From NCBI RefSeq assembly GCF_000185805.1, contig NC_014926.1, forward strand, positions 762,418-826,417: 64,000 nt of DNA, in the 5' to 3' direction. The stretch's first letter is position 1, and each line of letters opens with the position of its first letter. Origin of the DNA: Thermovibrio ammonificans HB-1. GTDB lineage: Bacteria > Aquificota > Aquificia > Desulfurobacteriales > Desulfurobacteriaceae. The notes beneath the pieces were generated by a model, which saw only the letters and a program-made list of their open reading frames with translations, had not been told where the DNA came from and searched no databases. Both the position numbers and the translations under genes were made by a program. Positions 47,399 to 51,290 of the stretch are shown here, piece after piece.

Positions 47399-48273
47399 TT
47401 GGGAAGCATCTCCGCTATCAGCTCCTCAAACTCCATCCCTGCGGCTTTTGCCGCCTTCGGCAGCAGGCTCCTCTCTGTGAGCCCCGGTATGGTGTTAATC
47501 TCGAGCAGAACCGGTGAGTTGTACTTGTCGAGCCTGAAATCGACCCTCACGGCACCCCGGCATTCGAGCACCTTATAGGCCTTTTCGGCCAGCCTGCACA
47601 GCCGCTCCTGTGTTTTCCTGCCGAGCTCTGCCGGAACTACGTACTCGGTGCGGGAGTCTGAGTATTTGGCCTCGTAGTCGTAGAGCTCTCCCGGGGTGAG
47701 GATTTCAACCGGCGGAAGCGGTCTACCGTTTAAAACCCCAACCGTTATCTCCCTTCCCTCTATAAACTCCTCTATTAGTGCTTTTGCGTCAACTGTTAGG
47801 GCCTCGTTAACCGCCCTTTCGAACTCCTCTTGGCTCTTTACAAGCGAGAGGCCTACGCTTGAGCCCACCCTTGCCGGCTTTACTATACAGGGTAGCTCGG
47901 CCGGTTCGGGTATTTCTTGGCCCCTGAAAACCGTAATGCCTGCGGGCACTCTTATTCCGTGGCTCTTCAGAAGCCTTTTTGTAAGGTCTTTATCTATTGC
48001 CACTGCGCTGGTTGTTACTCCGCAGCCTGTGTAGGGAATGCCCATAATCTCTAAGAGGCCCTGAACTGTTCCGTCTTCACCCGGCGAGCCGTGGAGGGCA
48101 AGGAATGCTACGTCGGGGGACTCTGCGGCCAGTTTTAGGGGAAGCTCCTTTGTCAGCTCGAGCTTTAAAACTCGGTGGCCGAGCTTCTTCAGGGCCCTCT
48201 CTACGCTTTCGGCGCTTTTCCTGGAGATTTCCGCTTCCGGTGAAGGTCCTCCGTATATGAGCGCAACTTTCAC
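47395..48273 (-). CDS. ddl: D-alanine--D-alanine ligase
   Basis: The 292-residue ATP-grasp enzyme joins two D-alanines for the peptidoglycan stem. Motifs are VALIYGGPSPEAEISRKSAE, HGSPGEDGTVQGLLE, PYTGCGVTTSAVAIDK, PARVGSSVGLSLV, EEFIEGREITVGVLNG and LLEINTIPGLTERSLLPKAA. The ligand for the terminal residue is D-Ala type rather than D-lactate, judged by the normal family phrases. The GTG start overlaps the murF stop (GTGA). It sits between murF and ftsQ, part of the dcw group. Confidence 0.96.
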   Translation of the reverse strand: MKVALIYGGPSPEAEISRKSAESVERALKKLGHRVLKLELTKELPLKLAAESPDVAFLALHGSPGEDGTVQGLLEIMGIPYTGCGVTTSAVAIDKDLTKRLLKSHGIRVPAGITVFRGQEIPEPAELPCIVKPARVGSSVGLSLVKSQEEFERAVNEALTVDAKALIEEFIEGREITVGVLNGRPLPPVEILTPGELYDYEAKYSDSRTEYVVPAELGRKTQERLCRLAEKAYKVLECRGAVRVDFRLDKYNSPVLLEINTIPGLTERSLLPKAAKAAGMEFEELIAEMLPK

Positions 48274-49568
48274 TTCAGCCTCTCTCTTATCAGCTCAACC
48301 GCCTCCTCGAGGCGGTTGCCCCTGGAGCCTTTGACCAACACGGTTTTCCCTCTGAAGGGGAATTCGGAAATAAACTTAATAAACTCTTCTCTGTTTGTAA
48401 AGTGGAAACCTTTACCTTTAAAAGTCTTTACCGTTTCCTCTGTTTGGGCCCCGAAGGCTATCAGCTCTTCTATGCCGAGGGCGTTGAGCAGCTCTCCCAG
48501 CTTTCTGTGCTCTTTCGGCCCTTCTTCCCCGAGCTCCAGCATCTCCCCGAGAACGGCCACCTTCGGTCCGTTGAACGACGCCAGAACTCTGACGGCGTTC
48601 TCCATGGAGACCGGGTTTGCGTTGTAGCAGTCGTCTATCAGCGTGCCATTCGGCAGCCTCTCTACGGAGCACCTGTGCTTCGGAGGGGAAAACTCTCTCA
48701 CAACTTTAACCAGCTCTCTAAGTGGAATCCCCAGCTCCAAAGCCACGGCGGCGGCAACTGCCGCGGCATTTACGATTGAGTAGCCGGGAATGGAGCTTTC
48801 GAGCTGGAGCTCTTCCTTCCCCGCTTTCAGCGTGAACAGGGTTCTGCCCCCTTTTATTCCCCAGTTTTTAACCTCAACTGTTCCGCCTCTCCCTACCGTA
48901 AGGCACTTATCTGCGCGGCACATTTCCTTGAGCTCTACCGGCACCACGGCAACTTCGGCACCTTCGGTAATAGATAGCTTCTCCTTTTTTATTGCCTCTA
49001 ACGTTTTAAACCCTTGGGTGTGGGCCTTACCGACCGTTGTAACCACTGCAACGTGGGGCTTTACGGTTTTGGTGAGCCGGGCAATTTCTCCGGGGGAGTT
49101 CGTTCCCAGCTCCTGAACCAAAAAGCGGGCGCTTTCTGGCAGGTTGGAGAGGGTGTAGCACACTCCAAGGAGGTTGTTGAAGCTCTTTTTACTGGTGTAG
49201 CAGTTTCTTCCCAGCAGCTTCCCCAGCAGCTCTTTCGTTGTTGTTTTCCCTACGCTCCCCGTTACGCCTATGACCGTTCCTTTAAACTTTTCCCTCTTCC
49301 ACCTTGCCAGCCTCTCGAAGGCCTCTAAGGTATCTCTTACTACAACTTGGAACTTGCCGGGCGGAAGCTCTACTCTCCTCTCTGTGAGGGTTCCGGCGGC
49401 TCCTCTGCTGAAGGCGTCGTTTATGAAGAGGTGGCCGTCTCTCCTCCCCTTAACGGGGATAAAGAGCTCCCCCTTTGCTATCTCCCTTGAGTCGAAGTGG
49501 ACGCCGCCGAACCTGCCGCTCCCTACAAGCTCCCCTTTAACTATTTCCGCCAGCGTTTTTGCGTCCAT
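48270..49568 (-). CDS. murF: UDP-MurNAc-tripeptide--D-Ala-D-Ala ligase
   Basis: The 432-residue Mur ligase adds the D-Ala-D-Ala dipeptide to UDP-MurNAc-tripeptide. N-terminal HFDSREIAKGELFIPVKG binds the uridine nucleotide. GVTGSVGKTTTKELL is the ATP loop, KSFNNLLGVCYTL is typical of MurF, and NCYNANPVSMENAV-type sequence (here DDCYNANPVSME) is the MurF signature. HRCSVERL precedes it. The start lies 32 bases inside murE. Together with Ddl directly downstream it completes the stem peptide. Confidence 0.96.
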   Translation of the reverse strand: MDAKTLAEIVKGELVGSGRFGGVHFDSREIAKGELFIPVKGRRDGHLFINDAFSRGAAGTLTERRVELPPGKFQVVVRDTLEAFERLARWKREKFKGTVIGVTGSVGKTTTKELLGKLLGRNCYTSKKSFNNLLGVCYTLSNLPESARFLVQELGTNSPGEIARLTKTVKPHVAVVTTVGKAHTQGFKTLEAIKKEKLSITEGAEVAVVPVELKEMCRADKCLTVGRGGTVEVKNWGIKGGRTLFTLKAGKEELQLESSIPGYSIVNAAAVAAAVALELGIPLRELVKVVREFSPPKHRCSVERLPNGTLIDDCYNANPVSMENAVRVLASFNGPKVAVLGEMLELGEEGPKEHRKLGELLNALGIEELIAFGAQTEETVKTFKGKGFHFTNREEFIKFISEFPFRGKTVLVKGSRGNRLEEAVELIRERLK

Positions 49569-50994
49569 AGAGCTCCCTCACCGTCTCTTGGTCGCTAAAA
49601 GGTAGCTTTTTGCCGGCCACTTCTTGGTAGTTTTCGTGCCCCTTACCGGCAATCAGCAGGTAGTCTGCTTGCCCTTTACCCCTTAGGGCGAGCTCTATAG
49701 CCCTTTTCCTGTCCAGCTCTACGGTTACCTTTCCTCTCAGCTCTTCGGGGATTCCGGCAACCACCTCTTTGGCTATCTGCTCCGGCGGCTCGCTTCTTGG
49801 GTTGTCGCTTGTGACTATCACCGAATCGGCAAGGGTTGCAGCTATTTTTCCCATTACCGGCCTTTTCGTTCTGTCTCTGTCTCCGCCGCAGCCGAAAACG
49901 ACAATGAGCCTGCCGGAGCAGGCCTTTTTCAGAGCGTTTAAGGCTTTTTGGAGGGCATCGGGGGTGTGGGCGTAGTCTACAAACACGCCGGGAACAACTT
50001 CTTCCATTCTCCCCGGAACTTTAACGTTTTTAAACGCCTCTTTTAGGTTTAACGGCTCGAACCCCAGCTCTGAGAGCAGGGAGAATGCAGCTGTAACGTT
50101 GTAGCCGTTAAACTCTCCTTTAAGGTTGTGCTTTACCTTTACTGCTCCTTTTGGGGTTCCGATTAGAACGCTTCCTTCGGGGTCTATTGCCTCTATTGTG
50201 TAGTTTCTGCTCTTTTTGCCGTAGGTTACGGTTTTCCCGCCGTTTACCGCCCTGAGGGCCGAAAGGGTTGTTCCGTAGGGGTCGTCGCGGTTTACCACCG
50301 AGAGTTTGCTGAGCCTGAAGAGCTTGGCCTTTGCCAGGAAGTACTCTTCGAGGTTCCCGTGGTAGTCTAAGTGCTCCGGGGTGAGGTTTGTAAATATGGC
50401 CCCTTCAAACTCTATGCCGTGGACCCTGTGTTGGTGGAGCCCGTGGGAAGAGACTTCGCAGACCACAAACTCGCAACCCCTGTTTTTTAGCTCTTTCAGC
50501 ATTTTGAAGAGCTCAACGGCGGAAGGGGTGGTTCTGCTGCTGGGGTGGAGCTCTTCTTCGCTCCCCCACGAAACGGTTCCTATTATCCCCGCTTTTACGC
50601 CGAGCCTGTTTAGAGCCTTAAAGAGCAGAAATGTGGTTGTTGTTTTGCCGTTGGTTCCTGTTACTCCCAGGATTTTCAGCTCTTTCTGTGGGTTGCCGTA
50701 AAGGTTCGCAGCGGCGGTTGCAAGTGCCTTCCTTGAGTTCTCAACGAGCAGGACCGGTTTCCCGGCGGCCGAGAGCTTCTCGAACCACTTCCGGGAGTCG
50801 GTTACAACGGCCGAGGCCCCTTTTTTCAGGGCTTCCTCTGCAAAGGTGTTGCCGTTGACTTTGGTCCCCCGAACTGCGAAGAAGAGAAAACCGGGCTTTA
50901 CTTCCCTTGAGTCTGCGGTTATCCCCTTAACTTCGACGTCGGGAGCCCCCCCGCACAGCAGGGGAACCCCCTTAAGGAGGTGAGGGAGTTTTAT
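49537..50994 (-). CDS. murE: UDP-MurNAc-tripeptide synthetase MurE with probable ATA start
   Basis: Translated from ATA at 50994 the protein has 485 residues, the normal MurE length. The frame upstream of ATG 50502 clearly encodes the missing N-terminal domain, including ITADSREVKPGFLFFAV and the ATP loop GVTGTNGKTT (110-119). The ATP loop would be lost if the ATG were used. No ATG, GTG or TTG occurs in frame between 50502 and 50994. The ATA overlaps the upstream stop (TAA at 50993-50991) and lies 7 bases after AGGAGG. The phrase SDNPRSEPP indicates meso-diaminopimelate as the added amino acid. The reading XKLPHLLKG fits the usual MKLxxLL start. A sequencing error or another non-standard start cannot be excluded. 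Confidence 0.93.
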   Translation of the reverse strand: MKLPHLLKGVPLLCGGAPDVEVKGITADSREVKPGFLFFAVRGTKVNGNTFAEEALKKGASAVVTDSRKWFEKLSAAGKPVLLVENSRKALATAAANLYGNPQKELKILGVTGTNGKTTTTFLLFKALNRLGVKAGIIGTVSWGSEEELHPSSRTTPSAVELFKMLKELKNRGCEFVVCEVSSHGLHQHRVHGIEFEGAIFTNLTPEHLDYHGNLEEYFLAKAKLFRLSKLSVVNRDDPYGTTLSALRAVNGGKTVTYGKKSRNYTIEAIDPEGSVLIGTPKGAVKVKHNLKGEFNGYNVTAAFSLLSELGFEPLNLKEAFKNVKVPGRMEEVVPGVFVDYAHTPDALQKALNALKKACSGRLIVVFGCGGDRDRTKRPVMGKIAATLADSVIVTSDNPRSEPPEQIAKEVVAGIPEELRGKVTVELDRKRAIELALRGKGQADYLLIAGKGHENYQEVAGKKLPFSDQETVRELYGRKNAGGNS

Positions 50995-51290
50995 TGTTCG
51001 CCCTCCTTGATGGTCTCCTCGAGCTTCTGGATTTTCTGCTCAACTTCTTCGAGGATGTTCTTCTTCTCCTCTTCGGTCATGCTGCCTTCGCCGGAGGAGA
51101 CGAGCTGTTTTATGGAGTCGGCTATCTCCTTAACCAGGTTCTGGGCCCTCTCGGGCAGGTCGCTCTCCTTTATCTGTTCTTGAAGCTCTTCCAGTTTCTT
51201 TAGAAGCTCCTCCCTTTTGGTGGTGGCCACCACAGCTGCGCCGGCACCTACGAGTGTTCCCAGGAGGAACAGAACGGAGCCTTTTTTCAT
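50991..51290 (-). CDS. Small YtxH-like membrane/coiled-coil protein
   Basis: The 99-residue protein starts with a hydrophobic, glycine-rich helix (about 4-24, SVLFLLGTLVGAGAAVVAT) followed by about 70 residues of Lys/Glu-rich heptads. This is the layout of YtxH-type proteins, whose role is unknown. It should be membrane-anchored. Its end contains the Shine-Dalgarno sequence and part of the start codon of murE, so its translation may control murE. By position it sits where ftsL or another small bitopic protein lies in other dcw clusters, but there is no sequence evidence for FtsL. Confidence 0.72.
   Translation of the reverse strand: MKKGSVLFLLGTLVGAGAAVVATTKREELLKKLEELQEQIKESDLPERAQNLVKEIADSIKQLVSSGEGSMTEEEKKNILEEVEQKIQKLEETIKEGEQ

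Follow-up and report, generated by a model that had tools for sequence, protein, structure and literature searches.

A probable AUA start codon for murE in Thermovibrio ammonificans HB-1 and AUN starts of pdxA and infC in the Desulfurobacteriaceae

The murE gene of the thermophile Thermovibrio ammonificans HB-1 very probably begins at an ATA codon, judging from the position of that codon, the spacing of its Shine-Dalgarno sequence, the extent of the coding signal and the use of AUN starts elsewhere in the family. Translation from AUA at position 50994 of the window (the whole 64,000-nucleotide stretch of DNA analysed here), with AUA acting as an authentic weak start, is the explanation in which we place high confidence. 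Conservation of infC and pdxA indicates that AUN starts are real in the Desulfurobacteriaceae, and the AUN start that the vitamin-B6 gene pdxA keeps across the family is a more interesting result than the murE ATA.

The murE frame and its start column

murE encodes UDP-N-acetylmuramoyl-tripeptide synthetase and occupies 49537..50994 on the minus strand, 485 codons counted from the ATA at 50992..50994. The protein predicted from this codon is a complete MurE (NCBIfam TIGR01085, 509 bits) whose N-terminal length lies within a few residues of that of solved MurE structures. The gene is present in a single copy in the genome, the remaining matches being weak Mur-ligase and FolC-type relatives. A preliminary description had the frame stop-free up to 50994, encoding a MurE N-terminus with no ATG, GTG or TTG upstream of 50502. 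All of this was confirmed except the extent, as the frame is actually open further, from 51039 to 49537 on the minus strand. The first canonical start in frame, ATG 50502, lies 164 codons past the ATA; an absence of this length has P ~0.003 from codon frequencies and, taken alone, is only mildly unusual.

The minus strand reads ATCAAGGAGGGCGAACAATAAAACTCCCTCA from 51011 to 50981, and the junction of murE with the upstream gene contains ATCAAGGAGGGCGAACAATAAAACTCCCTCACCTCCTTAAG on that strand. The upstream ORF ends in GGC GAA CAA TAA, and murE, in frame -1 relative to it, crosses the junction as GGA GGG CGA ACA ATA AAA CTC CCT. The ATA is overlapped by the upstream TAA stop (50991..50993, minus strand; ATAA, a 4-nt overlap) and is preceded at 7 nt by AAGGAGG (51002..51008, minus strand), which lies within the 3′ end of the upstream gene; the overlap and spacing described earlier were read directly on the minus strand. 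Across the ATG genes of the genome the Shine-Dalgarno-ATG spacing is mostly 4–7 nt, and the 7 nt of murE falls within this range.

An unsupervised coding score was used to survey 864 kb (40 stretches and the window; 49% of the genome and 774 genes) for genes whose coding signal extends ahead of their first canonical start. murE ranked first in this survey, with a coding signal that begins exactly at 50994.

The nearest relatives of this genome belong to one family, the Desulfurobacteriaceae, from which 19 relatives with a readable murE start were compared. The ATA stands in the same column as the start codons of all 19, as had been claimed for the position where MurE proteins start. The aligned codon is TTG in 12, ATG in five and GTG in two; the start column therefore matches in the junction alignment proposed earlier, and ATA occurs in 0/19 relatives. 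The first MurE residues align without gaps right after the start and form a conserved xLxxLL segment, in which Leu-3 and Leu-6 never vary among 13 sequences and Leu-7 hardly does. No ATG, GTG or TTG is found at or near this conserved N-terminus in the window, where an AUN codon occupies the homologous start column behind a good Shine-Dalgarno sequence. Since no relative carries it, the ATA appears to be private to Thermovibrio ammonificans HB-1 or derived. The canonical starts of the relatives argue against a conserved regulatory role of the ATA, not against an ATA start here, and at 44–57% identity these relatives are too distant to decide the base itself.

Initiation next to the upstream stop

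The small upstream gene (50991..51290, minus strand) encodes 99 residues with an apparent N-terminal membrane segment followed by a coiled coil. It gave no above-threshold Pfam or NCBIfam match, Pfam YtxH included, which leaves the label 'YtxH-like' given to it in the preliminary description without support from these collections. An ORF with the same C-terminal coiled-coil pattern precedes murE in the relatives whose contig reaches that far (not L002), and the small gene before murE is conserved in the family. Among the 19 genomes in which both genes were readable, the window included, the gap between them is -11 to +8 nt in 18 and +42 nt in one. The 4-nt overlap in the window gives the stop-start proximity of a termination-reinitiation coupled pair, a geometry that makes coupling of the two genes plausible. 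Downstream, murF (48270..49568, minus strand) overlaps murE by 32 nt and heads a continuing series through ddl, ftsQ and ftsA, with a GTGA overlap at murF-ddl, ATGA at ddl-ftsQ and 22 nt at ftsQ-ftsA. Overlaps thus run from gene to gene down the operon, which makes murE a single link in that coupled series and not a special switch. The share of co-directed gene pairs that overlap is highest in Aquificae, at ~30% (PMC6728339).

Initiator fMet-tRNA would start on the murE AUA with the help of AAGGAGG at 7 nt. A ribosome just ending the upstream gene, about one base from the AUA, would already cover AAGGAGG and would probably aid this start, by which a weak AUA might still yield enough of the essential MurE. 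That coverage favours re-initiation as the economical account; the Shine-Dalgarno sequence could also recruit ribosomes de novo. The earlier proposal that murE translation depends on re-initiation therefore holds for the geometry, and the dependence itself does not follow, because so strong a Shine-Dalgarno sequence would also allow de novo initiation. In this lineage an ATGA overlap probably gave rise to the ATA through a single G-to-A transition. Such a change from ATGA to ATAA would be an easy step, as no other mutation is needed and the upstream gene retains a stop, TGA becoming TAA.

A perfect complement of AAGGAGG, CCTCCTT, lies in murE codons 5–8 (50974..50980, minus strand). The two form a predicted hairpin with the ATA in its loop, which hides the Shine-Dalgarno sequence at 37–75 °C. 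Equally good or better hiding was obtained with 37.5% of synonymous murE recodings. At murE the hairpin is not stronger than the coding sequence requires, and it was rejected as an evolved gate: it does not exceed synonymous recoding here and does so only weakly in one clade. The AUN start is conserved among relatives for pdxA and infC, the pattern of an IF3-responsive start of the infC type; for murE it is found in one genome only. Neither the hairpin nor the unconserved codon supports regulation of murE, whether by a setting of its dosage, as proposed earlier, or by IF3. On the best reading the murE ATA would be a weak start that is tolerated, not a switch that has been conserved.

Alternatives to an ATA start

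The alternative that survives best, although unlikely, is that the true base is G, so that murE would have an ordinary ATG within a canonical ATGA overlap, the ATA being a product of faulty sequencing or assembly. Overlaps of the ATGA type are common (PMC6728339), ATG is one base away and no relative has ATA. Against this, the assembly consists of two contigs and is 99.99% complete, and a single unexplained in-frame stop (L160, TAG) was met among the 774 genes in 864 kb, so that the error rate looks low. The AUN starts of infC and pdxA in the same sample are also real by conservation. With substitution errors rare and two AUN starts proven by conservation, a real ATA is much likelier than an error.

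Rather less probable still is an internal start at CTG. One observation does speak against the ATA: codons 12–13 are CTG CTG and follow the SD-like stretch TAAGGGGGT, which lies 5–8 nt away and could serve as the Shine-Dalgarno sequence for either codon, giving a MurE with the N-terminus MLCGGAPDVEVK. CTG is a usable non-canonical start in E. coli, and one seems to be used by a radical-SAM gene (L159) of the same genome. Such a start would delete the xLxxLL segment, which is intact here and whose Leu residues are conserved in 13 sequences; moreover, the coding signal reaches up to the ATA and the start of every relative lies upstream of the CTG codons.

Ribosomes might also slip by -1 as they finish the upstream gene and so fuse the small protein to MurE; the -1 frame of murE, with 15 open codons ahead of the ATA, would suit this. 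Such a frameshift is very improbable, as GGC GAA CAA TAA is by inspection not slippery and the relatives have intergenic stops in various frames with gaps up to +8 or +42, so that a fusion is not conserved. It is scarcely credible that translation starts only at ATG 50502, the earliest canonical codon in the frame, and that the sequence upstream has decayed: a protein made from there would be missing the first domain and the ATP loop GVTGTNGKTTTT, full coding signal runs through the supposedly decayed part, which relatives conserve, and the genome has no second murE copy.

AUN starts of pdxA and infC, known systems and the wider survey

In all 14 Desulfurobacteriaceae genomes checked, pdxA starts with ATT, ATA or ATC and never with ATG, GTG or TTG (loci L130:10260 (+) and L189-L202; G000:C2 about 115260). 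None of the 14 has a canonical start upstream of the AUN codon. The Shine-Dalgarno core lies 7 nt from the start in 12 genomes and 6 nt in two, and the geometry of murE, AGGAGG followed by 7 nt, is that of pdxA. Three genomes (G004, G009 and G014) have ATG or TTG at pdxA codon 7, where a shortened product is conceivable; in the other 11 the next canonical codon comes 26 to 147 codons downstream. Outside the family, the seven genomes with a match start pdxA with ATG or TTG. infC starts with ATC here; most relatives use ATT and a few ATC or ATA (loci L123 and L143:5781 (+)). Among the papers searched, none described an AUU start of pdxA. Rare ATA, ATT and ATC starts are already known elsewhere; here they are a family habit, pdxA included. 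Gene finders restricted to ATG, GTG and TTG would probably cut murE short or drop it in this genome, and likewise pdxA across the family; genes that are essential can then seem damaged or absent. That pdxA keeps its AUN start in the whole family also offers a natural experiment on why bacteria retain weak start codons.

In E. coli, infC and pcnB have AUU starts (cited in PMC13009471), which belong to the AUN class that IF3 discriminates against. The murE AUA shares this class; the E. coli infC start is autoregulatory, whereas feedback is not part of the murE case as read from sequence. Natural AUA starts of Staphylococcus aureus (infC, ccpN and citZ) reach ~10–30% of AUG in reporters and have an extended Shine-Dalgarno sequence (PMC13009471). 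Like these, murE is a chromosomal gene with an AUA behind a strong Shine-Dalgarno sequence, but its ATA overlaps an upstream stop, unlike theirs, and is read in the sequence of one genome, whereas that of ccpN is shared with B. subtilis and has been tested with a reporter (PMC13009471). In Listeria monocytogenes, rsbW start mutants retain lower but real translation in the order ATG > ATA > ATT (PMC13068326). murE resembles them in the single-base change at an operon-internal start overlapping the upstream gene; the rsbW cases are mutants of a stress regulator, whereas that of murE is the fixed start of an essential wall gene (PMC13068326). As in ATGA termination-reinitiation, murE has a 4-nt overlap with its Shine-Dalgarno sequence inside the upstream gene, but combines an AUA start with a TAA stop where ATGA overlaps have TGA (PMC6728339). 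In E. coli, raised IF3 lowers both re-initiation and non-canonical initiation (PMC2268962). It is a tentative and rather doubtful idea that the Desulfurobacteriaceae maintain a small AUN set, made up of infC, pdxA and, in this species, murE, that abundant IF3 turns down as a group; if true, the set would link the supply of wall precursors and of pyridoxal phosphate to the condition of the translation machinery.

Besides murE, the survey gave infC (ATC), pdxA (ATT) and the radical-SAM gene apparently starting with CTG as clear cases. The last (L159:9780-8121 (-)) has its apparent CTG start behind AGGAGGTAGTAG, and CTG is also found in the congeners G002 and G003. The pattern AGGAGGN{3,9}ATAA occurs 91 times in the genome versus 24 for a reversed-pattern control, and its ATGA version 131 versus 57 times; these counts were rejected as a source of further ATA starts, being too unspecific. 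The one unexplained in-frame stop is a TAG near the N-terminus of an Ion_trans/RCK potassium-channel gene (L160:2797-1456 (-)), which may be a pseudogene, an error or a gene with an internal start.

A selD-like and a ferredoxin-like gene were set aside as cases without a canonical start, since they have an in-frame TGA instead. The ferredoxin-like frame (L142:14711-15167 (+); G000:C2:1084720-1085124) carries its TGA in 12/12 family genomes with the gene and is a probable selenoprotein, with TGA read as selenocysteine. Selenocysteine is probably also encoded by the in-frame TGA of the selD-like, that is, selenophosphate-synthetase-like, gene (L148:11266-11268 (+)) and by that of a peroxiredoxin-like frame in genome G005 (L180:18098-18096 (-); TFV-TGA-PTE).
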